Shown here piece after piece: positions 47,048 through 63,220 of a stretch of DNA of 64,000 nt. Under the pieces are notes generated by a model that saw only the letters and a program-made list of their open reading frames with translations, did not search any database and was not told where the DNA came from. The position numbers and the translations under genes are program-made. How positions within the stretch are numbered: position 1 is the first letter of the stretch; every line of letters starts with the position of its first letter. The DNA comes from Acidobacteriota bacterium (GTDB lineage Bacteria > Acidobacteriota > Terriglobia > Acidiferrales > UBA7541), in assembly GCA_021812285.1 (NCBI GenBank), contig JAKAOH010000002.1:1-64000 (forward strand), in the 5' to 3' direction.

Positions 47048-48475
47048 GTGGCTGAAAACGTCCGCGTCTTCTTTTTCGGATTCGATTCCAACCTGGCCAA
47101 GACCATAGGCCGCGAACTCGGCCCCGAGTTTGAATTCCGCCAATCGAACAAGATCGAACTGCCGCAGGACCTGCGCGAAGTATCCGCCTGGTGGGATGTG
47201 GTGATGGTGGATCTGACCGAAATCGGCTGCGACGGCGACGTGGAAGCGGCGTTTGCGCTGATGGACCAGGTGAACCGGCTCACCCAGGCCCCGCCGATCA
47301 TTGCGATTTTGGGTGGAGAAGAACGGCGAACGGTGGCCAAGGTGATCGAACACGGCGCGTTCGACACGATCTCGAGCCCTCCGGACCTGCACGAATTGCG
47401 GGTGGTGCTGCGGCGAGCGCAGAAATTCCTGCACGCCGAGCGCGAGTTGGCTCGGCTGCGGAGCGAGCAGGCGGCGCCGCGGCAGGTGTGCGACCTGATC
47501 GGCGCATCGCAGCCGATGCAGGAAGTTTTCTCGATGGCCGAAAAAGTGGCCGGCTACGACATCAACGTGCTGATCACCGGCGAGACGGGCACGGGCAAGG
47601 AATTGCTGGCGCGGGCGATCCATCGGATGAGTCCGCGGCAGAATTCGGCATTCGTGGCGTTCAGCTGCGTGAATTTGCCGGAAACGCTGATCGAGGATGA
47701 ACTCTTCGGCCACGAGCGCGGCGCCTTTACCGGCGCGGTGGCCGCGCGGCGCGGCCGCGTGGAAGCGGCCGACGGCGGCACGCTGTTTCTCGACGAAATC
47801 GGAGACCTTGGCATCGGCTTGCAGCCGAAATTGCTTCGCGTGCTGCAGGAACGGAATTTCGAGCGGTTGGGCAGCAATCATTCGCAATCGGTGAATATTC
47901 GCGTTCTGAGCGCGACGAATCAGGACCTGGAATCGCTCGTGAGGCAGAACCGATTCCGCGAAGATCTTTACTACCGGTTGAACGTGGTGGAAATCCATCT
48001 GCCCCCGCTGCGGGAACGCAAGGACGATATCCAGTACCTGGCGCAGTATTTTCTCGATCGTTGCGCCAAGCAATTCAACAAGGAAGTTCACCGATTTTCG
48101 CCCTGGGCGTTGCACGCGCTGGAGGAATACGACTGGCCAGGCAACGTGCGCGAACTTTCCAACACCATCGAGCGCGCGGTTGCCCTGGCGCAGACCGGCA
48201 CGATCGACGTCTGGCATCTGACGCGTTCGGCGCGCGATGTTTCGAAGGCGGCGGTGCTGGCGCGGACCTACGAAGGCGAAGTGCGCGAATTCAAGCGGCG
48301 GCTGATTATCCGCACGCTGCGCGAATGCGGTTGGCGCAAGGCGGAAAGCGCGCGCATGCTTGGTGTCGCCCGCACCTACCTGCACCGGCTGATCAACCAG
48401 CTCGACATTCATGAAGAAGAAGTCGCGGAAGCAGTCGCGCCGGAAGCTCCGACTCCGCCGCAGCGGCTGATTTGA
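47048..48475 (+). CDS. Sigma-54-dependent transcriptional activator (NtrC/PilR class)
   Basis: 475 residues from a GTG. Residues 1-130 form a receiver-like domain; DVVMVDLTE keeps an aspartate at the phosphorylation position, but the lysine expected near the end of the domain is not evident (FDTISSPPDLHEL), so it may be a pseudo-receiver. The AAA+ domain has GETGTGKE (Walker A), the sigma-54 contact loop GAFTGA, FLDEIGD (Walker B) and REDLYYRLNV. The C-terminus carries a Fis-type helix-turn-helix (RLIIRTLRECGWRKAESARML). It opens sigma-54 promoters and is the natural candidate to control the -24/-12 sites before flp, the 53.4-kb membrane gene and the PEGA gene. No sensor kinase is adjacent. 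Confidence 0.94.
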   Translation: MAENVRVFFFGFDSNLAKTIGRELGPEFEFRQSNKIELPQDLREVSAWWDVVMVDLTEIGCDGDVEAAFALMDQVNRLTQAPPIIAILGGEERRTVAKVIEHGAFDTISSPPDLHELRVVLRRAQKFLHAERELARLRSEQAAPRQVCDLIGASQPMQEVFSMAEKVAGYDINVLITGETGTGKELLARAIHRMSPRQNSAFVAFSCVNLPETLIEDELFGHERGAFTGAVAARRGRVEAADGGTLFLDEIGDLGIGLQPKLLRVLQERNFERLGSNHSQSVNIRVLSATNQDLESLVRQNRFREDLYYRLNVVEIHLPPLRERKDDIQYLAQYFLDRCAKQFNKEVHRFSPWALHALEEYDWPGNVRELSNTIERAVALAQTGTIDVWHLTRSARDVSKAAVLARTYEGEVREFKRRLIIRTLRECGWRKAESARMLGVARTYLHRLINQLDIHEEEVAEAVAPEAPTPPQRLI

Positions 48476-48506: not shown

Positions 48507-49466
48507 TTGGCGGCTTCCTTGAATTCGGCGGCGCATTCCGCGGGTGGTTTCGCGGCGGACGTGTGCCGGCCCTTTCTGCTGCAATCCCAAAATGCCGATG
48601 GAGGATGGGGGTATCACCCGGGCGCGACGAGCGCGGCCGAACCGACGGCGTGGGCCGTGCTCGCGCTCGCCAAGCGGGATCCACAAAGTCCCGAGCTTGC
48701 CCGAGCGGCGGCTTGGATTCTCGGCTGCCAGAATCAAGATGGTTCCTGGCCCGCGCGTCCCGAGACCGCCGAAGCGAGCTGGATTACTCCGTTCGCGGGC
48801 CTAGCGCTTCTCGCGCGGAAGGCGCCGGCTGCGGAAGCCGCGATTCAGAGCGCGGCGAAATGGACTTGCCAAAGTCACACCGGACAGCGCCATTGGAAAA
48901 TGCTGGTGGCCCGATTGGTGTCCCGGCGCCGGGTGGTTGGGCAGGATCTTTCGCTCGAGGGCTGGAGCTGGACGCCGGGTACGGCCAGTTGGATCGAGCC
49001 GACCGCCGTGGCGCTGATTTTTCTGCGTCAATTGCCGGCAATGAAGAATTCGCCGGATGCAATCGCCCGGCTCCAAATGGGGGAATCGTTTCTGTACGAC
49101 CGGATGTGCCCGAGCGGCGGATGGAGCATGGGCAATCCGAAAATCTACGGTATTGAAGGAATCGCACAGGCCGGAGTCACGGCATGGGCGCTGCTGGCGT
49201 TGCAGAAAAACCGTCAGAGGGAAGAAAACCGGCGAAGCATCGAATGGCTCGAAACAAATTTCGATTCGATCCGTGGCGCCAGTTCGCTTGCGCTGGCGCG
49301 GATCGCGCTCGAGGCGAACGGCCGCTCGCCGGTTTCTATCGAATCGAAATTGGCGACTCAATTCGTGGCGGGGCGGTTTCTGGACAGCGTGCTCGCCGTT
49401 TCGCAAGCGGCTTTTGCTTTGGAATGCGGCCCGGACGTGCTGCGCTGGACCGCGGCGGAACGCTGA
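48507..49466 (+). CDS. Prenyltransferase/squalene-cyclase-type alpha-barrel repeat protein
   Basis: About 319 residues; the track uses a TTG start without a clear ribosome-binding site, so the N-terminus is uncertain. The repeats Q-x3-GGW / Q-x3-GSW (LQSQNADGGWGY, CQNQDGSWPA, CPSGGWSMG) alternate with TAWAVLALAK-like helices, as in squalene cyclases and protein prenyltransferase beta subunits. It is half the size of a squalene cyclase and I see no DxDD motif, so a full cyclase activity is doubtful. Followed after 9 bp by a DUF362 gene and then the tad genes. Together with the latter it may belong to a pilus-associated operon, but its role is unknown. Confidence 0.75.
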   Translation: MAASLNSAAHSAGGFAADVCRPFLLQSQNADGGWGYHPGATSAAEPTAWAVLALAKRDPQSPELARAAAWILGCQNQDGSWPARPETAEASWITPFAGLALLARKAPAAEAAIQSAAKWTCQSHTGQRHWKMLVARLVSRRRVVGQDLSLEGWSWTPGTASWIEPTAVALIFLRQLPAMKNSPDAIARLQMGESFLYDRMCPSGGWSMGNPKIYGIEGIAQAGVTAWALLALQKNRQREENRRSIEWLETNFDSIRGASSLALARIALEANGRSPVSIESKLATQFVAGRFLDSVLAVSQAAFALECGPDVLRWTAAER

Positions 49467-49475
49467 AAATTTCCG

Positions 49476-50405
49476 ATGGCCATTTCGCAACATCCCTTGA
49501 TGCCGCCTTCAAATCGCCCGATCTCCAGAGTGGCGATCAGAAGGGTGGAAGACTACAGCGGGGATCTTTGCGGCATCGTCGAGGAGACGCTTCGCGAATT
49601 CCACCTTTGCGTCGCGGGCAAGAGCGTTCTGCTGAAACCCAATCTGGTGCTGGGCGATCCGCAGGGCGTGATGAATACGCATCCGGCGGTGATTCGCGCG
49701 GCGCGCGATACATTTCTGCGCCTGGGAGCAAGCCGCGTCTGGATCGGCGAAGGACCCGCGCACGAACGGGATACCGAGGCGATTCTAGACGAGATTCGGC
49801 TGCGGGATTGGCTGGGGCCGCTGGAGGGTTCGTTTGTGGATCTGAACCTGGACGACGTGCGGAAGGTTGCGCTGCGGACGCGAGCTTCGAAATTGCGTTC
49901 GCTCTTCCTGCCCGCGGCGGTTCTCGACGCCGATCTGGTGGTTTCGATGCCCAAGATGAAGACGCACCACTTGGCGGGCGTCACGTTGTCGCTGAAGAAT
50001 CTGTTTGGAATCGTTCCCGGAAGTTGTTACGGCTGGCCGAAAAACGTGCTGCACTGGGCCGGCATCGAGAACTCCATCCTTGATCTTGCGACGACCATCC
50101 GGCCGGATTTCGCGATCGTGGATGGAGTGGTTGCCATGGAAGGCAATGGTCCCATTCAGGGATCTCCGAAACATTCAGGGGTTTTAATTTTTGGGGATGA
50201 CCCGGTTGCCGTGGATGCCACGGCGACCAGGGTGATGGGGCTTGTTCCGGAGCGGGTCAGCTATCTACGAAAGGCTGGCTATGTGCTTGGCCATGTGCAA
50301 CTTGCAAAAATAGAGCAAATTGGCGAATCGATCTCCGCAGTCAGAAGTTCCTTCATGGTACTAGAACAATTCCGTGAACTCATTGAGCAACAGGACAACC
50401 AGTAA
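49476..50405 (+). CDS. DUF362 domain protein
   Basis: 309 residues from MAISQHPLMPP. The DUF362 pattern is clear: VLLKPNLVLGDPQGVMNTHP, then LVVSMPKMKTHHLAGVTLSLKNLFG, AIVDGVVAMEGNGP and DDPVAVDATATRVMG. Many DUF362 proteins also carry a ferredoxin domain; this one has no cysteine cluster. Proposed links of the family to iron-sulfur or secondary-metabolite chemistry are not settled. It is probably co-transcribed with the preceding cyclase-repeat gene (gap 9 bp), and the tadE operon begins 78 bp after it with its own candidate promoter. Confidence 0.85.
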   Translation: MAISQHPLMPPSNRPISRVAIRRVEDYSGDLCGIVEETLREFHLCVAGKSVLLKPNLVLGDPQGVMNTHPAVIRAARDTFLRLGASRVWIGEGPAHERDTEAILDEIRLRDWLGPLEGSFVDLNLDDVRKVALRTRASKLRSLFLPAAVLDADLVVSMPKMKTHHLAGVTLSLKNLFGIVPGSCYGWPKNVLHWAGIENSILDLATTIRPDFAIVDGVVAMEGNGPIQGSPKHSGVLIFGDDPVAVDATATRVMGLVPERVSYLRKAGYVLGHVQLAKIEQIGESISAVRSSFMVLEQFRELIEQQDNQ

Positions 50406-50450: not shown

Positions 50451-50483
50451 ATGGGTGACAGAACGGCCCGGAGGCGAAACGAT

Positions 50484-50957
50484 ATGATTTTCTCCAATCC
50501 TCGCTCGGAACGTGGCGCCGACATCCTGGAAGCGGCCCTGGTCCTGCCGCTATTGCTGGCGCTGATGTTTGGCGTCTATACGTTCGGCCGCGGCTGGGAC
50601 CTGTACCAGACGATGACGCGGGCGGCTCGCGAAGGCGTGCGGCAAGCGGTGACGACGAACTGCGCCATGTGCGGGGACACAACGCAGTCGTCCTCGTACA
50701 TTCAGTCGAACGTGGTTTTTCCCGCTTTGCAGGCGACTGGTTTCGACACGAGCAACAGTCTTTTTCAATCCACCTACCAGCAGGGCGAAACGTACATTGA
50801 TTCGGCCAATACGGTTTGCGGGGTGTACATCACCTACAGTTATCCCTTCCAGGTGATCCTCCCGTTCCTGCCGATTTCCGTGAGCACGATCGATTTGACG
50901 ACCAAAGTGCAGATGCGCATGGAGAACCAGCCAGTACCTCCTGCGACCTGTGGCTGA
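50484..50957 (+). CDS. tadE: TadE-like pseudopilin
   Basis: 157 residues from MIFSNPRSERGADILEA; GGAGG lies 9 bp before the ATG. The N-terminus has the TadE signature: a charged leader, RGADILEAALVLPLLLALMFGVYTF with a Glu five residues after the glycine, then a helix DLYQTMTRAAREGVRQAV. The C-terminal part is beta-rich with two cysteine pairs (CAMC, VCG/TCG) that may form disulfides outside the membrane. TadE/TadF pseudopilins are processed by TadV and needed for Flp pilus assembly. First of three genes with 9-bp gaps. Confidence 0.9.
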   Translation: MIFSNPRSERGADILEAALVLPLLLALMFGVYTFGRGWDLYQTMTRAAREGVRQAVTTNCAMCGDTTQSSSYIQSNVVFPALQATGFDTSNSLFQSTYQQGETYIDSANTVCGVYITYSYPFQVILPFLPISVSTIDLTTKVQMRMENQPVPPATCG

Positions 50958-50966
50958 GAGGCGAAC

Positions 50967-51593
50967 ATGAGAAGACCGGGAACAGCACGTACGCGCGCCA
51001 GCGAACGAGGCGTGGAGCTTTTTGAGCTGGCTATTCTGTTGCCGTTTCTTTTGGTGCTCGTGGCCGGAGCGGCGGATTTTGCGCAAGCCTGGAGTGCGCG
51101 GCAGATTCTGGCCAACGCCGCTCGAGAGGGCGCTCGTATCGGCTCGAATGGCGTCTACAATGATTTGGGCACCACCGATCCCTCTTCCATCCAGACGATT
51201 TGCCAGGATGTGGCGAATTATCTGATCCAGGCGAATCTGAGCCCTTCGTTCATGGGCGTGAATGGCACGACGGCGAGCGCAGTGACGAGCGCGTGCTCAT
51301 CGCCCGGGACGGTCCTCGATCCGACAACGGGTGCGACGGTCTCCTATACGTATTATTCGACGGGGTCCTATGGGCTGAAAATCACGCCGCTGTACCAAAT
51401 TACGACCACCGGACCGGAATGCCCGCCACTCGCGTCAAGCTGCATGATTTTCGCGACGCGCGTTTCCCTGACCTATCCCTACAATTGGTCATTCGGCTTC
51501 AACAACGCCATCAATCTGATCACCAGTTCCAGCTACTCGCCAACAATCACCATCAAGGTCTATGCGACCATGAATAACCTGAATACTTATTGA
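50967..51593 (+). CDS. TadE/TadF-like pseudopilin, second copy
   Basis: 208 residues from MRRPGTARTRASERGVELFE. It has the same N-terminal design, ERGVELFELAILLPFLLVLVAGAADF followed by ILANAAREGARIG. The periplasmic part is longer than in the first TadE and rich in Thr, Ser and Tyr, with cysteines that could pair (TICQDV, SACSSP, PECPP, SSCMI). It starts 9 bp after the first tadE and ends 9 bp before the tadG-like gene, so the three form a minor-pilin operon. Confidence 0.88.
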   Translation: MRRPGTARTRASERGVELFELAILLPFLLVLVAGAADFAQAWSARQILANAAREGARIGSNGVYNDLGTTDPSSIQTICQDVANYLIQANLSPSFMGVNGTTASAVTSACSSPGTVLDPTTGATVSYTYYSTGSYGLKITPLYQITTTGPECPPLASSCMIFATRVSLTYPYNWSFGFNNAINLITSSSYSPTITIKVYATMNNLNTY

Positions 51594-51602
51594 GGTGAGG
51601 GA

Positions 51603-53078
51603 ATGAATCGGCAGACGCAGGCGCGAAATGCTCGATCGGAACGCGGTTTGAGCCTGATCCTGGTGGCGTTTGGGCTCATCTTTCTGCTGGCGTTGGCCGG
51701 ACTCGCGGTGGATCTGGCGACGCTCTACGTGGCGCGAAATGAGGAGCAGCGCTCGGCCGACGCCGCGGCTCTGGCCGGAGCGTCGCAATTCGTCACCAGT
51801 TCGGTGACGAGCGGATTGATCACGGTGCAAGCCGCCGGACCGATGGCCGAGGCGCAAGCGGTGACGGTGGGAAATCAGAACCTGATCCTGGGGCGGAGCC
51901 CCAATCTGAGCACGAATAATTTCAACAGCACCTGCCCGGCGCCGAGCAATGTGTCCGGCGGCTGCCTGGATTTTTCCTACGCCAACGATCCGCAAATCAC
52001 CGTGGCGGTGGTGCAGAACGTTCCGACCTTTTTTATGAAGATTTTCGGGATTCAATCGGTGCCGGTATCGGTCACGGCGACGGCCGAGGCGTATACTCCC
52101 TCGGGTTCGGGTCCGGATACGGCGGTGAATTGCGTGAAGCCGTGGTTGCTGCCGAACTGCGACGAAAATTACATTGACACGACCGCAAGCTCCTCGACTC
52201 CCATCAGCGGGATCGATAATCCCAATTGTCCGGTGACCGACAGCAAGGGCAACCCCGTTTTGAACAGCGCCGGCGGCCAGGAATATTACGAATATTTCGT
52301 CGTTCCCAACCCGTCCGGATACGCCAACACGATTCTCCATCCCGGCTTGACAACCAGCGGGGCGATTGGCGAACTGCTGACGGTGAAACCCGGCACGCCC
52401 GGAGACGCCGAAACGCCCAGCAAATTCTGGCCGGTTTTCTTGCCTACGAACGGCAGTTTCATCTGCCCTGCTTGCGCCGCGAACGACCAAGCCACCAGCG
52501 GCACGAATTCAGCCGCGCTCTATCGTGAAAATATCGAATGCTGCAGCCAGCAAATCATCACCTGCGGAAACAACACGCTTGTAACTCCCATCAACGGCGA
52601 CAAAGTTGGCGCTACGGGCGCGGGCGTGGAATGCTTGATCAACGAAACGAACGCGGGCGTCGGTCAGGACTGCATCAGCATCGATCCGAGCAACTCCACG
52701 GTATGCCCGTATACAGGCGTAACGTACAGCCAGACAACCCCCTTCACGATATGGGCGGGCACCGACAATACCTATAACGTCTCTCCCGGCACGGTGATCC
52801 AGAACAGCAATTCCACCGTCACGATCCCGATCTACGACGGACAGGCGCTTTGCCCCGGCGGTTCGAGCGCGGCCACTTGCGCGCCGCAGTATGTGAACGT
52901 CGTCGGCTGGTTGCAGCTCTTCATTCAAAGAGTCAGCAAGAGCAACCAGGAGACGGTGTACGCGTTCGTCATGAACATCAGCGGCTGCGGCAATAGCGGC
53001 AGCAACGAATCCGGTCCGGGCACGGTCATTCCGGTCAACACCGGCAGCCCCATTCCCGTGCGGCTGATCCATAACTGA
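51603..53078 (+). CDS. tadG: TadG-like protein with TadE/G N-terminal domain
   Basis: 491 residues from MNRQTQARNARSERGLSLIL. The N-terminus is the putative Flp pilus-assembly TadE/G domain (FGLIFLLALAGLAVDLATLYV, then RNEEQRSADAAALAGASQFV). The remaining 420 residues are extracytoplasmic, Ser/Thr/Asn-rich and contain about 16 cysteines (CPAPSNVSGGC, CPACAANDQ, ECCSQQIITCGN), suggesting several disulfides. I do not see a clear MIDAS of a von Willebrand A domain, which many TadG have, so it may be a shorter variant with an adhesive function. A GTGAGG ribosome-binding site precedes the ATG. Confidence 0.88.
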   Translation: MNRQTQARNARSERGLSLILVAFGLIFLLALAGLAVDLATLYVARNEEQRSADAAALAGASQFVTSSVTSGLITVQAAGPMAEAQAVTVGNQNLILGRSPNLSTNNFNSTCPAPSNVSGGCLDFSYANDPQITVAVVQNVPTFFMKIFGIQSVPVSVTATAEAYTPSGSGPDTAVNCVKPWLLPNCDENYIDTTASSSTPISGIDNPNCPVTDSKGNPVLNSAGGQEYYEYFVVPNPSGYANTILHPGLTTSGAIGELLTVKPGTPGDAETPSKFWPVFLPTNGSFICPACAANDQATSGTNSAALYRENIECCSQQIITCGNNTLVTPINGDKVGATGAGVECLINETNAGVGQDCISIDPSNSTVCPYTGVTYSQTTPFTIWAGTDNTYNVSPGTVIQNSNSTVTIPIYDGQALCPGGSSAATCAPQYVNVVGWLQLFIQRVSKSNQETVYAFVMNISGCGNSGSNESGPGTVIPVNTGSPIPVRLIHN

Positions 53079-53345: not shown

Positions 53346-53361
53346 TGGTACCCCGATTGCT
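53346..53361 (+). promoter_or_regulatory. Sigma-54 (-24/-12) promoter of the membrane-protein gene
   Basis: TGGTACCCCGATTGCT matches the sigma-54 consensus at TGG-Y-AC and TTGCT, with exactly 12 nt from GG to GC. Transcription would start near 53371, 16 nt before the GTG at 53387 or about 60 nt before the ATG at 53432. Confidence 0.7.
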
Positions 53362-53386: not shown

Positions 53387-54976
53387 GTGTCTTCGCCCGG
53401 ACGGGGAGACGCGCGGAAAGCGCAATCATCTATGGTGAGCTCAAGCAACGTCATCAACGAGGAAGTGACCGTGGAAGAGTTTTGGCTGGTGGGTCTGGTA
53501 AAAAAGGCGATTTCGTTTCCCGTATTTCTCGGTGTTCTGCTAGCGGTTGCGGCAGGCGTGGTGGCGATGTCGCATCTGGCCGATCCGGATACGTGGTGGC
53601 ATACGAAGGTCGGGCAATGGATTCTGGCGACCGGCCGTTTCCCCACGCACGACATCTATTCCTACACCGTGCATGGGCATCCGTGGATTGCCTACGAATG
53701 GCTTGGGGAAGTATTGATGGGCCTGGCGGGCCGGGCGGGCGTGGGCGGGTTGATGTGGCTGCTGTGCGGTATTTCGGCCGCGTTGCTCACGCTGATGTAC
53801 ATCTACGCCTACGTCTATACGCGGAGCGTAAAGGCGGGGGTAACTGCTGCCGCCCTGCTGTTGCCGCTGGAAGGTGTTTTCTTCACGCTGCGCCCCCAGT
53901 TGATCGGGTATTGCTTCCTGGTGGTGTTGCTGATCCTGATGGAGTTGTATCGACAGGGAAACGAGAAGGCGCTGTGGTTCATTCCGCCGTTGTTCCTGGT
54001 TTGGGTCAATACGCATGGAACCTTTTTCATCGGGCTCGGCATTTTCGGCGTGTATTGGCTGTGCGGGCAGTTTGAATTCGAATGGGGAACCGTGGAAGCG
54101 AAGAAGTGGACGCCGCGGCAGAGCCGGCATCTGCTTCTGACCATTCTGGCTTCGACAATTCTGCTTCCGCTGACGCCGTACGGGACTCAGCTTGCCGCTT
54201 ATCCCTTCGAGATGGCGTTCATGCAGCCGCTCAATATTCAGAGCATTCAGGAGTGGCAACCGCTGAGTTTCGGGCCGCCGTGGGGAAAAGCGTTTCTCAT
54301 TCTGGTGGTCGCGCTCCTGTTTTTGCAGTTGAGGTGGAAGCCGCGGTATCGCTTCTTCGATCTGGTCTTGTTGACTGTCACGATTTTTGCCGCTGCGCAG
54401 CATCAGCGTTTCATCGCCGTCCTCGTATTCGCCTTTTTGCCGATCGTGGCCGCTTTTGTCGGCCGCTGGATGACTCCCTACGCTCCGAGCAAGGACAAAT
54501 ATCTGTTGAACGTGGCGCTGATCGCCTTGATCGTCTTTGGCGTCTTCCACTTTTTCCCCAACGATCGCCAGATCGATAAGCGTTTGGGAAAGACGTATCC
54601 AATGAAGGCGATCGCCTACATTCAGGAGCATGGCATTCCCGAGCCGTTGTACAACGACTACGGTTGGGGCGGGTACCTGATCTGGAAGTTCGGCAATCTG
54701 CACGGCAGCTCGCTGCCGGTGTTTATTGACGGCCGCGCGGACATCTACGATTACGCCGGAGTTTTGCGGGACGATCTGGATATCGCGGACCTGAAACCGG
54801 ACACGCCTTTCTTGTTCGATAAATATCAACTCCGGACGGTCTTCACCAATTCCGATTCCGCCCTGGCGACGTATTTGAGGGCTTCGCCCGAGTGGTCGAT
54901 CGCGTATCAGGACAAACTGTCCACGATTTTCCTGTATCACGGGAAGTATCCAAAGGCGGCTTCCTATGGGTTCTGA
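53387..54976 (+). CDS. Polytopic membrane protein, unknown function, in the Tad locus
   Basis: 529 residues from a GTG, or 514 from the ATG at 53432 (MVSSSNVINEEV), which I find about equally likely. About ten membrane helices, with periplasmic loop motifs SHLADPDTWWHTKVGQWIL and HPWIAYEWLGEVLM near the N-terminus. Acidic residues in the first loop and the general architecture recall GT-C type glycosyltransferases or O-antigen polymerase-like proteins. The C-terminal 120 residues are soluble (IPEPLYNDYGWGGYLIWKFG, DGRADIYDYAG). It has its own sigma-54 type promoter and lies between the minor pilin genes and flp, so pilin glycosylation or envelope function is a reasonable guess only. Confidence 0.75.
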   Translation: MSSPGRGDARKAQSSMVSSSNVINEEVTVEEFWLVGLVKKAISFPVFLGVLLAVAAGVVAMSHLADPDTWWHTKVGQWILATGRFPTHDIYSYTVHGHPWIAYEWLGEVLMGLAGRAGVGGLMWLLCGISAALLTLMYIYAYVYTRSVKAGVTAAALLLPLEGVFFTLRPQLIGYCFLVVLLILMELYRQGNEKALWFIPPLFLVWVNTHGTFFIGLGIFGVYWLCGQFEFEWGTVEAKKWTPRQSRHLLLTILASTILLPLTPYGTQLAAYPFEMAFMQPLNIQSIQEWQPLSFGPPWGKAFLILVVALLFLQLRWKPRYRFFDLVLLTVTIFAAAQHQRFIAVLVFAFLPIVAAFVGRWMTPYAPSKDKYLLNVALIALIVFGVFHFFPNDRQIDKRLGKTYPMKAIAYIQEHGIPEPLYNDYGWGGYLIWKFGNLHGSSLPVFIDGRADIYDYAGVLRDDLDIADLKPDTPFLFDKYQLRTVFTNSDSALATYLRASPEWSIAYQDKLSTIFLYHGKYPKAASYGF

Positions 54977-55091: not shown

Positions 55092-55105
55092 TAGTTCTAG
55101 AACTA
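55092..55105. promoter_or_regulatory. 14-bp perfect palindrome upstream of flp, possible activator site
   Basis: TAGTTCTAGAACTA is a perfect palindrome about 190 bp upstream of the flp -24/-12 promoter. That distance suits an upstream activator sequence for a sigma-54 enhancer-binding protein. I do not find the same palindrome before the other two sigma-54 sites, so the assignment is weak. The 54977-55294 stretch otherwise has no gene. Confidence 0.35.
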
Positions 55106-55294
55106 ATGGACTCTCTGATTTCACCTCGCGGGAGGGTAGGCTGCGTGCAAGGTAATCGCGGCCATGAGTTCCTCCTTGTGTATGTTGAAGATGCCGGCAA
55201 GGGCGGCCTCGGGACCTCGATGGTTGAGTCGAGGGAAGGAAGGGCATTGGCGATTGCGAAACCGAAGGCAGGGCTAAGGGAGTTCTTAGAATTT

Positions 55295-55310
55295 TGGCAG
55301 CAGAAGTGCA
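55295..55310 (+). promoter_or_regulatory. Sigma-54 (-24/-12) promoter of flp
   Basis: TGGCAGCAGAAGTGCA: TGGCA at -24, TGCA at -12, and exactly 12 nt between GG and GC. Transcription would start near 55321, leaving a leader of about 53 nt that contains a small hairpin (55327-55345) and a strong AAGGAGGG ribosome-binding site. Confidence 0.75.
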
Positions 55311-55373
55311 TCATGCAAAAGGGAACGGCGCAGCGCCGCTGTGCCGATGACCGCTCTCCAAGGAGGGAAGGAA

Positions 55374-55547
55374 ATGAAGAACCTGTTGCGTCGTTTGTGG
55401 AAGGAAGAAGAAGGCCAGGACCTGATCGAGTACGCCCTGCTGGTCGTGCTCATCTCGTTGATCGCCGTGGCCTCGCTCCGCGTGGCTGGCGATGCCGTCA
55501 GCGATGCTTTCTCGAACGCGGCTGCGAACCTCACCAGCAACACGTAA
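55374..55547 (+). CDS. flp: Flp-type major pilin
   Basis: 57 residues from MKNLLRRLWKEEEGQDLIEY, with AAGGAGGG before the ATG; the track start is 11 codons upstream. The prepilin leader ends in a glycine, and the mature part starts QDLIEYALLVVLISLIAVASL, the Flp motif with Glu-Tyr at mature positions 5-6 counting from the Q. TadV would cleave after the glycine. The C-terminus is short and Asn/Ser/Thr-rich (SNAAANLTSNT), a potential target for modification. It sits alone between a sigma-54 promoter and a strong hairpin, as expected for a gene expressed at much higher level than the assembly genes. Confidence 0.95.
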   Translation: MKNLLRRLWKEEEGQDLIEYALLVVLISLIAVASLRVAGDAVSDAFSNAAANLTSNT

Positions 55548-55571: not shown

Positions 55572-55599
55572 CACTGGAGGGGGAAATTCCCCTCCAGTG
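55572..55599 (+). terminator. Strong hairpin after flp
   Basis: CACTGGAGGGG and CCCCTCCAGTG pair perfectly (11 bp) around the 6-nt loop GAAATT, 24 bp after the flp stop. No U-tract follows, so it may be a partial terminator or a 3' stabiliser that raises pilin mRNA over the downstream assembly genes. Confidence 0.6.
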
Positions 55600-55964
55600 C
55601 ACGAGCCGAAATCAGGGAAGACAATTCAGGCCGCGCATATCCCCCGGCAGGACGCAAGACGGGGCGGGAGAGCGCGGCCGGTTTTGTTTTCAGTCTCGGA
55701 TCGCCGATGGGGGGGAAACCAGGGCGCGCGGTGGGTGTTTCTCGCACCGCGTAGCGTTCACGGCGCCGAATCCGGGGAACCTAGATTATCCGCGTCGTGG
55801 AGACTTCCGAGACGATTGTATTCATTGTGCGGCGCCCGCTGGCGGGACGGAAGATCCGGGGAAATCCAACCGTTGTCAGAATGTAACCTTGCTTATCAGG
55901 AAAAGGCGCGGCGGTACAGGACTGCTGGTAAGATTGCACGGTCGGGGTGGTGACCGTTGGATGC
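55600..55964. other. Intergenic region between flp and tadV
   Basis: 365 bp without a convincing gene; the plus-strand frame at 55597-55953 has no start signal or motif. It must carry a promoter if the assembly genes are expressed independently of flp. I found no -24/-12 site with both halves good (CCTTGCTT near 55886 lacks a GG at -24). Confidence 0.5.
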
Positions 55965-56516
55965 ATGGTAATGATGGCAATCCTTTCTAATCTGCATTTG
56001 CCGTGGATTTTGGCCGTAATCCTGACACTTGTCGCCGGGCTGGGCGACCTGCGCACGCGACGCATCCCGAACCGGTTGACGGTTCCGGCGCTCCTGGCGG
56101 GCTTGGGCGTCAACGGGCTTCTGGGCGGGTGGCACGGATTGCTTTTCAGTTTGGAAGGCGCGGGATTGGGTTTGGGACTTCTGCTCCCGCTGGTTCTCTT
56201 GCGCGGGCTTGGCGCGGGGGACTGGAAGCTGATGGGAGCGCTGGGGGCCTTCGTGGGTCCAGCGATGACATTCACGATTTTGTTTGTTTCGATGTGCCTG
56301 GCCGCGGCCTGGGGAGTGGTGGAGATGATCCGGCAGCGGCGGGTGAAGACAACGCTGTGGAATTTGTGGGAACTGGTGCACGGATTTGTGTTATTCGGGT
56401 TGCAGCCGAATCCCAACATTTCGATTGATACTCAGCCATTGATCAAGCTGCCGTTCGGCGTGGTGACGGCCGTGGCCACAGCCGCGGCCCTCTCGGCGGC
56501 TTGGCTAAGGTTGTAG
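55965..56516 (+). CDS. tadV: Prepilin peptidase of the Tad system (TadV/CpaA, A24)
   Basis: About 183 residues from MVMMAILSNLHLPW; the exact start among clustered methionines, or the track GTG, is uncertain. Both A24 aspartates are visible: GLGDLRTRRIPN and the GxGD motif GAGDWKLMGALG. About five hydrophobic segments. It lacks the cytoplasmic cysteine methylase domain of PilD, as is normal for TadV/CpaA. It would cleave Flp and the TadE-type pseudopilins after glycine. First of the assembly genes; cpaB follows after 19 bp. Confidence 0.92.
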   Translation: MVMMAILSNLHLPWILAVILTLVAGLGDLRTRRIPNRLTVPALLAGLGVNGLLGGWHGLLFSLEGAGLGLGLLLPLVLLRGLGAGDWKLMGALGAFVGPAMTFTILFVSMCLAAAWGVVEMIRQRRVKTTLWNLWELVHGFVLFGLQPNPNISIDTQPLIKLPFGVVTAVATAAALSAAWLRL

Positions 56517-56535
56517 CGGAAAGGGGAACGGGGAG

Positions 56536-57390
56536 ATGAACCGCAGGCGGTTACTGATCGGTTTGGCCACGGCAGTGGTGTTGGCCGTGCTTGCGAGCAC
56601 GTTCGTATACCGGCAGGTTCGCCAGACCCCGGTGGTCCAACAACAGAAGGCGCCATCGACGCAGATCGTTGTTGCGTCTGCGCCCTTGCCGCTGGGCACG
56701 CGTCTGGACGCGCACGATTTGCGCTTGGTTCCCTGGCCCGGCAACGAGCCGGTGCCCGGGATGTTCACTCGGTTGCAGGACGCCGAGGGACGGGCGCTGA
56801 TCACGAACGTCGTGCAAAACGAGCCGATTCTCGAGTCGGAATTGGCTCCCCGAGAAGCTGGAGCGGGCTTGCCGGCGACGATTCCCGAGGGCATGCGCGC
56901 GGAGTCGGTTGCGGTGAACCAGGTGGTGGGCGTATCCGGATTCGTGCAGGCGGGAAATATGGTGGATGTGATCGCCGTTGGCAACCCAGGCAACGGCGAG
57001 GGTGGCGGTCAGACGTTGGCCAAGACGGTGCTGGAAAACGTGAAGGTGCTGGCGGCGGGGGAGCAGGTGACGCAGGACGCCCAGGGCAAGCCGCATGTTG
57101 TCCCGGTGGTGACGCTGCTGGTTTCTCCGGAAGATGCCGACAAGCTGGCGCTGGCCGCGGCGCAGGCGCGCATACAGTTGGCATTGCGGAACACGATTGA
57201 CACCAAGGTTGTCCATCCGCCGAGCATCTTTCAGGCGCAGTTGCTCAGTCCGACGGGCGGACCGGCGCCGACGGGTCCGCGGCGGATCATTCGGCGGCCC
57301 CGGCGCGTGGTGCCACAAGCACCGCCGCCCTACGTGGTGGAAGTGATCAGCGGAAACAAACGGGAAACGAAGACGTTCCCGAATCACTAA
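56536..57390 (+). CDS. cpaB: Flp pilus assembly protein CpaB (RcpC)
   Basis: 284 residues from MNRRRLLIGLATAVVLAVLAS, one N-terminal membrane helix. A SAF domain (residues 45-115: IVVASAPLPLGTRLDAHDLR) precedes the RcpC/CpaB domain (ESVAVNQVVGVSGFVQAGNMVDVIA, VTLLVSPEDADKLALAAAQ). The C-terminal 45 residues are basic and proline-rich. CpaB is periplasmic and thought to gate or stabilise the secretin. The gene follows tadV by 19 bp and precedes cpaC by 14 bp. AAAGGGGAACGGGGAG precedes the ATG. Confidence 0.93.
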   Translation: MNRRRLLIGLATAVVLAVLASTFVYRQVRQTPVVQQQKAPSTQIVVASAPLPLGTRLDAHDLRLVPWPGNEPVPGMFTRLQDAEGRALITNVVQNEPILESELAPREAGAGLPATIPEGMRAESVAVNQVVGVSGFVQAGNMVDVIAVGNPGNGEGGGQTLAKTVLENVKVLAAGEQVTQDAQGKPHVVPVVTLLVSPEDADKLALAAAQARIQLALRNTIDTKVVHPPSIFQAQLLSPTGGPAPTGPRRIIRRPRRVVPQAPPPYVVEVISGNKRETKTFPNH

Positions 57391-57404
57391 GGCCGGTGAG
57401 GGAC

Positions 57405-58772
57405 ATGGCGAAGACGAAGCGGAATATTTGGCTGGGCCTGGCGTTCGCATTGGCTTTTGCGCTGAATCTGGGCGCACGACAGCAGCCCGCGGGAGCGTCG
57501 CTTCCGCAGACGCTGCACCTTCTCGTCAACCGATCGCTTGTGATCACGTCGCCGGTGCGGATCACCCGGGTTTCAATCGCAAACCCGGACATCGCGCAAT
57601 TGACCGTGATCAGCCCCTACCAGGTGCTGGTGGATGGGAAAACGCCTGGGGCGGTGACGATGATTTTGTGGGGCGCCAACGGTGAAACCGAGACGTTCGA
57701 TCTTTACGTGGACGTCGACGTGATGGCGCTGAGCCAGAAGATCCACGACGTATTTCCTTCCGAGCACGTCCGGATCGAGGCGTCGCAGAATATCGTCATG
57801 CTGACCGGCCAGGCATCGTCGGCTGGCGTCGCGGACCGGATCTACCAACTGGTTTCGGCGGAAGTGCCGAAGGTGATCAGCCTGATTCAGGTGCCCACCG
57901 CGCCCACCGAAGGCCAGATTTTGCTTGCCGTCAAGTTCGCCGAGCTGGACCTGACGAAGGAACAGGATTGGGGCTTCAACTTCTTCAGCCTGCCCGGTTC
58001 GACCACGCGGACCTTGGGCGTCGCGCAGACGCAGCAGTTTGGTCCGCTGAGCACGCCAAACATCTCGAGCCAATCGACCTCGACGAGCACAACCTTGACC
58101 GCGGGCGACATCATGAATCTGTTTATTTTCCGCCCGGACATCAATATGGGCATCACGATCAAGGCGCTGATCAACAGCAGCATCCTGCAGATTCTCGCTC
58201 AGCCGAATCTATTGACCGAAACCGGGAAGCAGGCCAGTTTCCTGGCCGGCGGCGAATTCCCGTTCCCGGTGATTCAGGGCGGAGCGGCCGGGTCCGTGCC
58301 GACGGTTACGGTCCAGTTCAAGCAGTTTGGCGTGATGCTGCACTTTACGCCGACGCTGACGGCGGACGGAAAGATCGATCTGAAGGTCGAGCCGGAAGTG
58401 AGCACGTTGGACTACACCAACGCTTTGCAACTGCAAGGCTTCCTGATTCCGGCGATTTCGACTCGACAGGTGAAGAGCGAAATGCTGCTCAAGGACGGTC
58501 AGACGTTCGCCATCGCGGGCTTGCTCGATAACCGGGTGACGAAGGTGATGGACAATATCCCGTGGCTGAGCAGCGTGCCGATTTTGGGCAAACTTTTCAG
58601 GAGCTGGCAAATCCAGAAATCCCATTCCGAGTTGCTGGTGCTCGTCACTCCGCATATAGTGGAGCCATATGGCCCCGGCCAAGCCCCTTCGGGACCGAAA
58701 TTTCCGATTCCGTTCATGACCTGGCCGCCCCCGGCCGCCAAATCCGGCCAAACAGGGCAGTCGGGCAAATAA
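57405..58772 (+). CDS. cpaC: Outer-membrane secretin CpaC (RcpA)
   Basis: 455 residues from MAKTKRNIWLGLAFALAFAL, a signal peptide; the track GTG is three codons earlier. The N-terminal pilus-assembly domain (RSLVITSPVRITRVSIANPDIAQL) is followed by a BON-like segment (VRIEASQNIVMLTGQASSAG) and the secretin core (VKFAELDLTKEQDWGFNFF, ILQILAQPNLLTETGKQASFLAGGEFPFPV, VQFKQFGVMLHFTPTL, LKDGQTFAIAGLLDN). It forms the outer-membrane pore for Flp pili. The C-terminal tail is Pro/Gly-rich. Confidence 0.95.
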   Translation: MAKTKRNIWLGLAFALAFALNLGARQQPAGASLPQTLHLLVNRSLVITSPVRITRVSIANPDIAQLTVISPYQVLVDGKTPGAVTMILWGANGETETFDLYVDVDVMALSQKIHDVFPSEHVRIEASQNIVMLTGQASSAGVADRIYQLVSAEVPKVISLIQVPTAPTEGQILLAVKFAELDLTKEQDWGFNFFSLPGSTTRTLGVAQTQQFGPLSTPNISSQSTSTSTTLTAGDIMNLFIFRPDINMGITIKALINSSILQILAQPNLLTETGKQASFLAGGEFPFPVIQGGAAGSVPTVTVQFKQFGVMLHFTPTLTADGKIDLKVEPEVSTLDYTNALQLQGFLIPAISTRQVKSEMLLKDGQTFAIAGLLDNRVTKVMDNIPWLSSVPILGKLFRSWQIQKSHSELLVLVTPHIVEPYGPGQAPSGPKFPIPFMTWPPPAAKSGQTGQSGK

Positions 58773-58824
58773 GGGTTTTGCGACGTGAACGGGATCGGGG
58801 GACGGTGAGAAGACAGAACGATCC

Positions 58825-60012
58825 ATGCTAAGGGTTTTGATTGCGAGCGCTGATCTGCACAGCAGTCAGCAACTCCGGGCTTCGCTCGAGCAGACGGGCT
58901 TGGTAGGAGACGTCGTCGAGTGGAAAATGACGGGGGACGAACTCCCGCAGCCGGGAGAGGCCTCCGCTGATGTTGTGCTGCTCGACCTCGGGCGTGACCC
59001 GGAGCCCTATTTCGCCCTGGCGAAGCACGTCCGAACGCTTCAGCCGGCGGTGCGCGTCATCGCCTGCTCGACGCATTCCGATCTCGATCCCCAGCTCCTG
59101 CTCGAGGCGATGCGCAGCGGGGTTCAGGAGTTCCTCTCGAAGCCGGTGTCTCCGGACGCTTTCCGTGACACTCTCGATCGCTTTGAAGCCGAAGTGAACG
59201 CTCCGGAAAAGCGCGCCACCGATCGCTTGATCGTGGTGATGGGAGCCAAGGGCGGTGTGGGAACAACGACGGTCGCGGTGAACCTTGCCGTGCAACTGGC
59301 GCACAAAGTGAAGCGCCGCACCGTGCTGGTCGACTTCGGGCGCCCGCTCGGCCAAACGCATCTGATGCTCAACCTCACCCCGCGGTTCAACGTGCGCGAT
59401 GCGGTCGAGAATTTGAACCGTTTGGACAGCCACTTTTTCACCGGTTTGCTCACCGAGCACCGGAGCGGACTCGAACTGCTCGGCGGCGTGACGCAACCCG
59501 AGGAGTGGGAGCGGATTCCGCTGGCGTCCACCGCCCGGGTGATCAACGTGGCGCAAAGCAACTTCGAATCGGTGGTCGTGGACTACGGAACGCAGTTTTC
59601 GACGGAGTGGGCTCCGGTGCTGCGCACCGCGCGGGCGGTCGTCATGGTGGCGGAAACGAACGTGCCGGCGCTGTGGGCGCTGGAACGCCACCTGCTGGCG
59701 CTGCTGGGCATGGGGATCGAAGCGAGCCGCCTGCAGATCGTCGTCAACCGCTGGCGGCGGGCGGACCAGGACGCCCTGAAGACGGTGGAAAAAAACATCA
59801 AGCATCCGATCTTTTCCGTGATCCCGAACGACTACAAACAGGTGAGCGACGCGATCAACATGGGAACCCCGCTCATGGGAAACCACAACAACCCGTTGGT
59901 GTCGAAGTTCGCCCAACTGGCGGCCCAGCTGAGCGGAGCGGAGTCTTCGCCGCAAGAGACGAAATCGGGCGGGTTCAACCTGTTTCTGTTTTCGTCGAAG
60001 AAAGGCGGATAA
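58825..60012 (+). CDS. cpaE: Pilus localisation ATPase CpaE/TadZ
   Basis: 395 residues from MLRVLIASADLHSSQ. Residues 1-125 are a receiver-like domain (ADVVLLDLGRDP, SGVQEFLSKPVSPDAF), which appears to keep Asp and Lys. Residues 130-370 form a MinD/ParA-like ATPase with the deviant Walker A KGGVGTTT and a conserved NRWRRADQD region. TadZ places the pilus machinery at the pole and recruits the other Tad proteins. cpaF follows after 3 bp. The C-terminal lysine-rich tail may contact membrane or DNA. Confidence 0.93.
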   Translation: MLRVLIASADLHSSQQLRASLEQTGLVGDVVEWKMTGDELPQPGEASADVVLLDLGRDPEPYFALAKHVRTLQPAVRVIACSTHSDLDPQLLLEAMRSGVQEFLSKPVSPDAFRDTLDRFEAEVNAPEKRATDRLIVVMGAKGGVGTTTVAVNLAVQLAHKVKRRTVLVDFGRPLGQTHLMLNLTPRFNVRDAVENLNRLDSHFFTGLLTEHRSGLELLGGVTQPEEWERIPLASTARVINVAQSNFESVVVDYGTQFSTEWAPVLRTARAVVMVAETNVPALWALERHLLALLGMGIEASRLQIVVNRWRRADQDALKTVEKNIKHPIFSVIPNDYKQVSDAINMGTPLMGNHNNPLVSKFAQLAAQLSGAESSPQETKSGGFNLFLFSSKKGG

Positions 60013-60015
60013 ACC

Positions 60016-61305
60016 GTGCCTGGGACACGCATGGATTTTTCGGCCGTCAAGGCGGCCATTCACCGCAAGCTCATTCAGAAGCTCGATCTCGAGCGACTGA
60101 CCGAATCGGACCGCGAGCAGGTGCGCCGGGAAGTTTCGCAGATCCTCGAAAACCTGGTCATGGGCGAATCGACGCCGATGACCCTGCAGGAACGCGAGCG
60201 GCTTTCGCAGGAAGTGCTCAACGAGGTATTCGGTCTGGGCCCGCTCGAGCCGCTGCTGAACGATTCAACGATTTCCGATATCCTGGTGAACTCGCACCGG
60301 CAGGTCTACATCGAACGGAACGGCATCCTGGAACCCACGCCGATTCAATTTCGCGACGACCAGCACCTGATGACGATCATCGACCGGATCGTTTCGGCCG
60401 TGGGCCGGCGCGTGGATGAATCGTCGCCGATGGTGGATGCGCGCTTGCCCGACGGCTCGCGCGTGAACGCGATCATTCCTCCGCTGGCGATCGACGGGCC
60501 GGCGCTTTCCATCCGGCGATTCGGCCGCGGCCGCTTGCAGGCGGACGACCTGGTGCGCAACCGGACCTTGATGCCGCCCATGCTGGAGCTGCTCAAGGGT
60601 TGCATTCAGGCCCGGCTCAACATGCTGATCTCGGGCGGTACGGGTGCCGGCAAGACGACTCTGCTGAACATGCTTTCCCAGTTCATCTCCGACCGCGAGC
60701 GGATCATCACTATCGAGGACGCGGCGGAACTCCAGCTCCACCAGCGGCACGTGGTGCGCCTGGAGACGCGGCCGCCCAACATCGAAGGGCAGGGAGCCAT
60801 CCGTCAGCGGCAATTGGTGATCAACGCCCTGCGAATGCGGCCAGACCGGATTCTGGTGGGCGAGGTGCGCGGCGAGGAAGCGCTCGACATGCTCCAGGCC
60901 ATGAACACCGGTCACGAAGGGTCACTGACCACGATTCACGCAAACACGCCGCGCGACGCCCTCAGCCGGCTCGATACGATGGTGGCGATGGCGAACCTGA
61001 ACCTGCCGGAATCGGCGATCCGCCACCAGATCGCTTCCGCCATCGACGTCATCGTCCAGGTCAGCCGGCAAAGCGACGGCACGCGTAAAGTGACCAGCAT
61101 CGCCGAAGTCACCGGGATGGAAGGCGAAGTCATCACGATGCAGGATATTTTCCTTTTCCAGAAGAAGGGAATCGGCCCGAATGGGCAAGTGCTGGGGGAA
61201 TTCGGCGCGACGGGTATTCGGCCGAAATTCGCGGAGCGCTTGCTGGTTGCCGGCTTCCGTTTGCCGATGGATATGTTCGAGCGGAAGAAGGCGGAAACGG
61301 CCTAA
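60016..61305 (+). CDS. cpaF: Flp pilus assembly ATPase CpaF/TadA
   Basis: 429 residues from a GTG three bases after cpaE (an ATG is five codons later, [14 protein letters not shown]). This is a type II/IV secretion ATPase: N-terminal helical bundle, [17 protein letters not shown], Walker [15 protein letters not shown], Asp box [10 protein letters not shown], Walker [20 protein letters not shown] and His box [13 protein letters not shown]. As a single TadA-type enzyme it powers pilus extension and probably retraction. Confidence 0.96.
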
Positions 61306-61314
61306 AGGACACCC

Positions 61315-62283
61315 ATGGCGCTGCTGGTTGCATTCTTCACGTTTTTGGCGGTGATGGCGATCATCCTGCTGTTTTTCACGGTGGGGGGCGGCGCGCCGCA
61401 AGAGGACATCATCCGGAAGCGGTTCGAGGCGGTGCAGCGCGCCGAACGCCGCGGCGATTTGAGCCTGGGCCTGCAACTGGTTCGCGACGAACTGCTGAGC
61501 GACGTTCCCGCGCTCAACAAGTTGCTCGTTCGCTGGACCTGGGCGGAGCGGCTCCGGGAGTACATCGAGCAGTCCGGCGTCCGCAGCAAGCCGGGCAAAA
61601 TCCTGCTTCTCAGTTTCGTGCTGGCAATCGGCAGCTATCTGGTGGTTGCCGCCATTGTGGGTATAGTGCTGATCGCGCTGGCCGCGGGCATCGTTGCCGG
61701 CATGATCCCGTTGGCGGTGATCGCCTTCAAACGCAATCGCCGATTCCACCTCTTCGAGAAACACTTTCCCGAAGCTCTCGACCTGCTCGCGCGGGCCGTT
61801 CGCGCCGGCCACGCCGTCACCACGGGATTCGAGATGGTCGCCAAGGAGCTTCCCGAGCCGGTTTCCGGCGAATTCCGCACCACGTTCGAGGAACAGAATT
61901 TCGGGCTCCCTCTGCGCGACGCTCTCTTGAACCTCACCGAGCGGGTTCCTCTGCTCGACGTACGGTTTTTCGTGACGGCGCTGCTGATTCAGAAGGAGAC
62001 GGGAGGCAACCTGGCGGAAATTCTCGATAACCTTTCCCGGGTCATTCGAGAACGGTTCCGGATTCGCGGCGAGGTGAGAATTCGCACGGCGCAGGGCCGC
62101 ATGACGGCGGGAATTTTGATTGCCCTGCCTCCACTCATGCTTTTCATGCTCAACATGCTGAACCCGAGTTACATGAAACCCATGTTCACCCAGTCGATCG
62201 GCCATTGGATGCTGATCGGCGCCGCGGTCTTGCAAGTGGTCGGCTCGATCCTCCTCTGGAAGATCGTTCACATCGAGGTGTGA
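61315..62283 (+). CDS. tadB: Tad platform protein TadB
   Basis: 322 residues. An N-terminal membrane helix (MALLVAFFTFLAVMAIILLFF), a cytoplasmic segment, two central helices, then the T2SSF domain: FEKHFPEALDLLARAVRAGHAVTTGFEMVA and ALLIQKETGGNLAEILDNLSRVIRER. Two C-terminal membrane helices end the protein. It is the inner-membrane platform that works with TadC and the CpaF ATPase. Starts 9 bp after cpaF. Confidence 0.94.
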   Translation: MALLVAFFTFLAVMAIILLFFTVGGGAPQEDIIRKRFEAVQRAERRGDLSLGLQLVRDELLSDVPALNKLLVRWTWAERLREYIEQSGVRSKPGKILLLSFVLAIGSYLVVAAIVGIVLIALAAGIVAGMIPLAVIAFKRNRRFHLFEKHFPEALDLLARAVRAGHAVTTGFEMVAKELPEPVSGEFRTTFEEQNFGLPLRDALLNLTERVPLLDVRFFVTALLIQKETGGNLAEILDNLSRVIRERFRIRGEVRIRTAQGRMTAGILIALPPLMLFMLNMLNPSYMKPMFTQSIGHWMLIGAAVLQVVGSILLWKIVHIEV

Positions 62284-62296
62284 GGCGGAGGTCGGA

Positions 62297-63220
62297 ATGC
62301 CCTGGATTGTCATTTTCACGTTCGTCGCGACGTTAGCGATTTGCGGCATCGTCGTCTTCGTTTTGGTGCAAGGCGGCAGCGGCGAGATCGCGGAGCGGCT
62401 TTCCCACCTCTGGCATTTCGGAGCAAAAAGGCAGGAGCCGTCCTTCCCGGACAAGCAGAGAGCGCGGGCGGAAAAAGCGCTGGTCAAGGTCGCCACGCTG
62501 ATTCCTCCGTCGCAGAAGACGGTTTCGCGTTCACAGCAGATGTTGATTCGGGCCGGGTACCGCAACCCGCAGGCGGTTCTGGTGGTGCGCGGGTTGCGGA
62601 TCTTGCTGCCGATCGTTCTGGTAGCGATTGTCTACTTCACCGGTTTTTACGAGGAAAATCCGGTGGTGATTATCGCGCTGGCCGCGATCATCGGCTACAT
62701 GGGCCCGGAATTCTACGTAACCCAGAAGGTTCGGTCGAGGCAGCACCGGCTGCAACTCTCGTTGCCCGACGCGCTGGACCTGATGGTGATCAGCATGGAA
62801 GCGGGGCTTGGCCTGGACCAGGCGATTCTGCGCGTGTCCCAGGAGCTACGCTTCGCGCATCCGGAGTTGAGCGAAGAACTTCAGATGGTGAACATGGAAA
62901 CGCAATTGGGCAAGAACCGGCTGGAAGCGCTTCGGGAGCTTGCGACGCGCACCGGCGTGGAGGATATCAAGGCTCTTGTGGCCATGCTGATCCAAACCGA
63001 CCGGTTCGGCACGAGCGTCGCCCAATCGCTGCGCGTGTTTTCAGACGACCTGCGCGTCAGGCGCCGTCAGCGGGCCGAGGAGCAGGCGGCGAAGACCACG
63101 GTTAAAATGGTGCCGCCGCTGGTGTTCTTCATTTTTCCCGCCCTGATGGTGGTCATCCTCGGGCCGGGCGTGATCGCGATCATGCAGCAGCTTTTGCCCG
63201 TCGTTTCCGGCGCGCATTAA
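62297..63220 (+). CDS. tadC: Tad platform protein TadC
   Basis: 307 residues with GGAGGT before the ATG. Similar layout to TadB: N-terminal helix, a basic cytoplasmic segment, two helices, the T2SSF domain (LQLSLPDALDLMVISMEAGLGLDQAIL, LIQTDRFGTSVAQSLRVFSDDLRVRR) and two C-terminal helices (VFFIFPALMVVILGPGVIAIM). TadB and TadC are ancient paralogues forming the platform heterodimer. A TadD-type TPR gene, often next, is not found in the window. Confidence 0.94.
   Translation: MPWIVIFTFVATLAICGIVVFVLVQGGSGEIAERLSHLWHFGAKRQEPSFPDKQRARAEKALVKVATLIPPSQKTVSRSQQMLIRAGYRNPQAVLVVRGLRILLPIVLVAIVYFTGFYEENPVVIIALAAIIGYMGPEFYVTQKVRSRQHRLQLSLPDALDLMVISMEAGLGLDQAILRVSQELRFAHPELSEELQMVNMETQLGKNRLEALRELATRTGVEDIKALVAMLIQTDRFGTSVAQSLRVFSDDLRVRRRQRAEEQAAKTTVKMVPPLVFFIFPALMVVILGPGVIAIMQQLLPVVSGAH

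Follow-up and report, generated by a model that had tools for sequence, protein, structure and literature searches.

A conserved, predicted sigma-54 promoter before the Tad pilin gene flp of an Acidobacteriota bacterium, and its probable activator

The best explanation we can offer for the control of the Tad pilin gene flp in this Acidobacteriota bacterium is a sigma-54 promoter that is served by an activator encoded in the same locus (the 47048 protein), together with co-induction of a gene for a predicted GT-C glycosyltransferase and a hairpin that keeps the pilin mRNA at a high level. We put the probability of this reading at roughly 0.8. The comparison of genomes bears out the sites, their conservation, and the architecture and synteny of the activator. 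The window, by which we mean the whole stretch of 64,000 nt that was analysed, holds the locus in the order activator gene, two TadE-like genes, a TadG-like gene, the membrane protein gene, flp, and then tadV, rcpC, rcpA, tadZ, tadA, tadB and tadC (Table 1). A first-pass annotation, made from the letters of the window, had proposed that the organism uses sigma-54 for its Tad pilus. A conserved site, one rpoN and activator orthologues that travel with the Tad loci now lend this good support, and we regard the proposal as right on the sequence and probably right on the biology.

Table 1. Features of the Tad locus and their positions in the window
Feature	Position	Strand	Evidence
Sigma-54 activator (bEBP) with a receiver-like domain, a GAFTGA-containing AAA+ domain and a Fis-type HTH	47048..48475	+	Domain match; Tad-locus synteny in the family
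Two TadE-like minor pilin genes and one TadG-like gene	50451..53078	+	
Second predicted sigma-54 site, TGGTACCCCGATTGCT, before the GT-C gene	53346..53361	+	Conserved in 4 congeneric genomes
Multi-spanning membrane protein, predicted GT-C glycosyltransferase	53387..54976	+	AlphaFold, Foldseek; probable start 53432
Perfect palindrome of 14 bp, TAGTTCTAGAACTA; the activator's candidate enhancer (UAS)	55092..55105	.	Conserved in each of the 4 genus members
Second conserved GG-N10-GC element, GGGTAGGCTGCGTGCA, at -240	55134..55149	+	GG and TGCA invariant in 4 genomes, at identical distance from ATG
Predicted -24/-12 sigma-54 promoter of flp, TGGCAGCAGAAGTGCA	55295..55310	+	Core unchanged at -79 in 4 species; family-wide excess at the canonical spacing
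Pilin gene flp (Tad, type IVb/IVc); product of 57 aa with the processing motif G|QDLIEY (Glu+5, Tyr+6)	55374..55547	+	Pfam PF04964, translation
Strong hairpin behind flp with a stem of 12 bp and without a T-run	55572..55599	+	Each of the four species has a strong hairpin here
Tad assembly genes downstream of flp: tadV, rcpC, rcpA, tadZ, tadA, tadB, tadC	55947..63220	+	

The predicted flp promoter and its conservation

The reading frame of flp translates as MKNLLRRLWKEEEG|QDLIEYALL..., which contains the G|xxxxEY motif of Flp/Tad pilins, and the product matches Pfam Flp_Fap (PF04964) at E 2.4e-7 with 30.9 bits, slightly below the curated cut-off of 32.2 bits. The gene is located with the full row of tadV, rcpC, rcpA and tadZ to tadC. 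The first-pass annotation had placed a sigma-54 site 64 bp before the ATG of flp and had given the distance from GG to GC as exact, and both statements hold on the plus strand: the final base of the site lies 64 nt ahead of the ATG at 55374, the core reads TGGC...TGC, and ten bases separate GG and GC in TGGCAGCAGAAGTGCA (GG-N10-GC, or 12 counted from G to G). From this, transcription is predicted to start at about 55320-55322. The genome has a single copy of rpoN, on another contig (E 9.5e-53). Taken singly, the flp site is at chance level and not significant; the pattern TGGCAN7TGCA has one match in the window against 0.52 expected, and genome-wide there are 28 copies against 25 for a reversed-pattern control. 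The site is significant because of its position and its conservation, and not because of the single match.

In four congeneric species, which are those members of the genus that have this Tad locus, the site starts at exactly -79, and all of its nine core bases are invariant, compared with 22% of the columns in the adjoining stretch from -224 to -84. Over the family, TGGC-N8-TGC at the canonical spacing has 14 matches between -160 and -20 across 34 distinct flp genes, whereas thirteen wrong spacings tried on the same genes gave 0-4 matches each (mean 1.2), i.e. no excess. If just the leading flp of each family Tad locus is taken, the pattern is present in 12 of 14, where the background would give 0.025 per 140 bp for each gene (binomial p about 6e-18, with lineages treated as independent), and when the genus is counted once it is present in 9 of 11 (p 2e-13, on the same assumption of independent lineages). 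When 17 gene types of the locus were put through the same kind of test for a sigma-54 excess, a clear excess was limited to flp (22 vs 3.5) and to the GT-C gene (8 vs 0.8, three of those eight coming from one locus). The Tad assembly genes showed no clear excess of their own in this per-gene-type test, and the genome's two remaining flp paralogues are without a sigma-54 site.

The flp site recurs outside of the family. In family f50, which belongs to another class of the phylum, four genomes have near-perfect flp sites at -65 to -71, e.g. TGGCACGCCGATTGC, with the pattern TGGCACG-N4-TTGC, and an activator gene is found about 1.5 kb upstream of flp in all three loci where that stretch was covered. 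The f50 activator (L093, L094, L095) has no receiver domain, and its gene follows tmk and holB-like genes and precedes flp; it is therefore a different activator from the 47048 protein. Two genera of a sister family also have flp sites. Judged from these genomes, the site recurs independently in another class, beside a different activator. Position and spacing are thus conserved in relatives, and the check that the first-pass annotation had named for its reading, conservation of the site in related genomes, came out strongly in favour of it: the position is the same in four congeners, the site is found family-wide, and it appears again in another class. We also considered whether the site is universal in the phylum and rejected this, as 20 genomes in our phylum sample of 129 bear flp and about 5-6 of these 20 have a site.

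The activator gene and the elements upstream of flp

The GAFTGA-containing activator gene that had been pointed out at 47048 encodes a full sigma-54 activator. Its product matches Sigma54_activat at E 5e-70, with Walker motifs and an intact GAFTGA in the AAA+ domain and a Fis-type HTH (PF02954) at the C-terminus. The N-terminal 139 residues have a predicted (beta-alpha)5 receiver fold, and the predicted structure is in its overall architecture like NtrX, NtrC1 and FleQ, the AAA+ part of the model being of low confidence. The arrangement of a receiver-like domain, AAA+ and Fis-HTH is common to the FleQ and NtrX/NtrC1 structures (8p53, 5m7p, 4l4u) and the 47048 protein, but the receiver signature of the latter is its own. 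Among the orthologues, which are 47-95% identical and have a well conserved HTH, the phospho-Asp is usually kept, but nearly all have S, A, G or N in the position of the receiver Lys, and a single Asp is left of the acidic pair, so that the protein lacks the complete set (acidic pair, phospho-Asp, Lys) of a phosphorylated NtrC-type response regulator. Because of the replaced Lys and the reduced acidic pair, ordinary phosphorylation of this receiver appears doubtful. Among the locus neighbours examined we recognised no kinase gene, and none that is PilS-like. The c-di-GMP linker motif of FleQ is FRS (in LFRSLVG). At the same place the 47048 protein has VCD (VCDLIG), and FleQ-like binding of c-di-GMP, which we considered as well, is not indicated as the linker motif is not conserved.

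Orthologues of the 47048 gene lie near the Tad locus in most genomes of the family that have this locus, usually with the order of neighbours kept. The genome encodes about 15 full-length sigma-54 activators, and it is for this reason on synteny that we base the pairing of the 47048 protein with the flp promoter; the protein is probably the activator of flp. The stretch 48507-50405 of the window encodes a squalene-hopene-cyclase-like repeat protein and a DUF362 protein, which are syntenic with the Tad locus across much of the family.

The palindrome TAGTTCTAGAACTA, about 200 bp before the flp promoter, is well placed as a candidate enhancer. It stands at -282/-284 in four of four genus members, with flanks that are merely 16-52% identical. 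Upstream of flp it was not found outside the genus, so it is confined to the genus whereas the HTH of the activator is conserved across the family, and it was not seen near the GT-C promoter. As a genome-wide marker of a regulon the palindrome was tried and rejected, since it has few other copies, mostly without a good sigma-54 site nearby. Elsewhere in two genomes, the core GTTCTAGRAC is found about 190 bp before a TGGCACTC-GCGTGC sigma-54 site, which precedes the second gene of a tandem pair of sigma-54 activators (L084 and L085; G000:C188 near 4288 and G031:C91 near 12375), and we note this as a lead.

With about 15 activators to choose from, another bEBP could act on flp from a true sigma-54 promoter, and the 47048 protein would then have other targets, in the cluster or elsewhere. 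The tandem activator pair of the two genomes fits with this, as GTTCTAGRAC precedes the sigma-54 site there too and another activator may bind it. We find it rather unlikely nevertheless, since the 47048-type activator keeps its synteny with Tad loci over the family, and since a different activator takes the same place beside flp in another class. The element at -240 has to be weighed as well. Its invariant GG and TGCA, at an unchanged distance in four species, would suit a main sigma-54 promoter with a long regulated flp leader, the -79 site then being secondary. Its match to the consensus is however poorer (the first base is G, or there is no C after GG in some species). Beyond the genus its only possible instance is in L009, while the proximal site does occur beyond the genus, at about -65 to -120. 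A search of the flp leader against Rfam gave no credible match to a leader RNA, and we consider a main promoter at -240 very improbable. Hardly any weight at all can be given to the idea that the -24/-12 match is fortuitous and that transcription of flp relies on a housekeeping or ECF sigma factor: the chance-level frequency of the site over the genome speaks for it, but the site's position and spacing and the conservation of its bases in family and phylum speak against it, and no sigma-70-like promoter was found in the upstream region of flp.

The GT-C gene and the proposed mechanism

The 53387 product gave no match when searched against Pfam. Its AlphaFold model has a pTM of 0.80, and Foldseek with this model gave matches to STT3/OST, DPY19, ArnT and PglB at a TM of about 0.5, which is a likeness at the level of the fold only. 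A DPDxWWH motif is invariant in the first loop, and the predicted structure thus combines, at fold level, the two marks of GT-C enzymes, i.e. the fold and an acidic motif in the first loop. Of the site TGGTACCCCGATTGCT before this gene, TGG, ATTGC and the approximate position are kept in the genus, and the remainder diverges. The simplest reading, which we regard as possible, is that the GT-C enzyme modifies the pilin and is switched on with flp; that it would glycosylate the pilin is suggested by the neighbourhood and by the common kind of promoter.

In the mechanism that we propose, sigma-54 RNA polymerase would transcribe flp from the -24/-12 site, and the 47048 AAA+ activator would bind upstream, the palindrome being the candidate site. 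The bound activator would loop to the closed complex and remodel it with ATP via the GAFTGA loop. The GT-C gene, having its own sigma-54 site, would probably be switched on along with the pilin. The hairpin after flp likely protects or processes the 3' end, by which the pilin mRNA would be kept abundant and the pilin be made in excess over the machinery, and the assembly genes would get read-through or be served by another promoter. The pilin gene and the GT-C gene were the only ones for which we found a conserved sigma-54 site; if sigma-54 controls the machinery, it would have to do so by read-through that starts at flp. Of the steps named here, we infer the binding, the activation, the co-expression and the role of the enhancer.

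Known systems and the place of Tad control in Acidobacteriota

It had been stated in the first-pass annotation that Tad/Flp pilins usually are under other control than sigma-54. This stands for P. aeruginosa and Pectobacterium, which have other regulators, but not for Desulfovibrio vulgaris, where the sigma-54-dependent regulator DVU2114 targets Flp-type pilin genes (PMC3333781, PMC4641369) and is a precedent. The DVU2114/DORF39640-DVU2116 genes of D. vulgaris Hildenborough have, like here, a GAFTGA activator, a Flp-type pilin and then Caulobacter-like cpa/tad genes. DVU2114 is however described as a two-component response regulator and has been reported in just a few sulfate reducers (PMC3333781, PMC4641369), while here the receiver is degenerate and the phylum another one, and unlike in the DVU2114 system the GT-C gene has the same kind of promoter. 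PprA-PprB for flp/tad in Pseudomonas aeruginosa and the two-component system in Pectobacterium are examples of a dedicated Flp/Tad regulator, as here (PMC10418997, PMC3767616), but those papers do not describe PprB or the response regulator of Pectobacterium as sigma-54 activators. In a P. fluorescens rpoN mutant, flp/tad are not listed as changed (PMC9207406).

A link of sigma-54 with pili or flagella in general is established (PMC3162934). The PilS-PilR system of type IVa pilA in Pseudomonas, Myxococcus and Geobacter is, as cited in two papers (PMC3333781, PMC2725144), similar in its NtrC-family activator and in the -24/-12 promoter before the major pilin, but it belongs to the type IVa pilus and not to Tad, and the Acidobacteriota locus is without a recognised PilS-like kinase. 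Our literature search, mostly without subscription journals, found no paper on sigma-54 control of Tad in Acidobacteriota, and in the literature that it covered a sulfate-reducing bacterium was the sole other case of such control of Tad pili. The type of mechanism is known. New are the phylum, the conserved dedicated activator with its degenerate receiver, the return of the feature beside another activator in a second class, and the type of control that a GT-C gene has in common with the pilin. As a tentative hypothesis, which we think could well be wrong, sigma-54 may be a recurrent Tad switch in Acidobacteriota, recruited with activators that differ between classes, which in this family would co-induce the pilin and the GT-C enzyme that glycosylates it, by way of a non-phosphorylatable receiver that senses another signal.

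Tad pili serve surface attachment and are widespread, but there are few organisms in which the control of their transcription is understood. For the abundant but poorly cultured Acidobacteriota, a conserved sigma-54 switch and its dedicated activator offer a regulatory model that can be tested, and they connect Tad pili with type IVa pili, whose control by sigma-54 is better known. The GT-C finding, for its part, points to a possible enzyme of pilin glycosylation.
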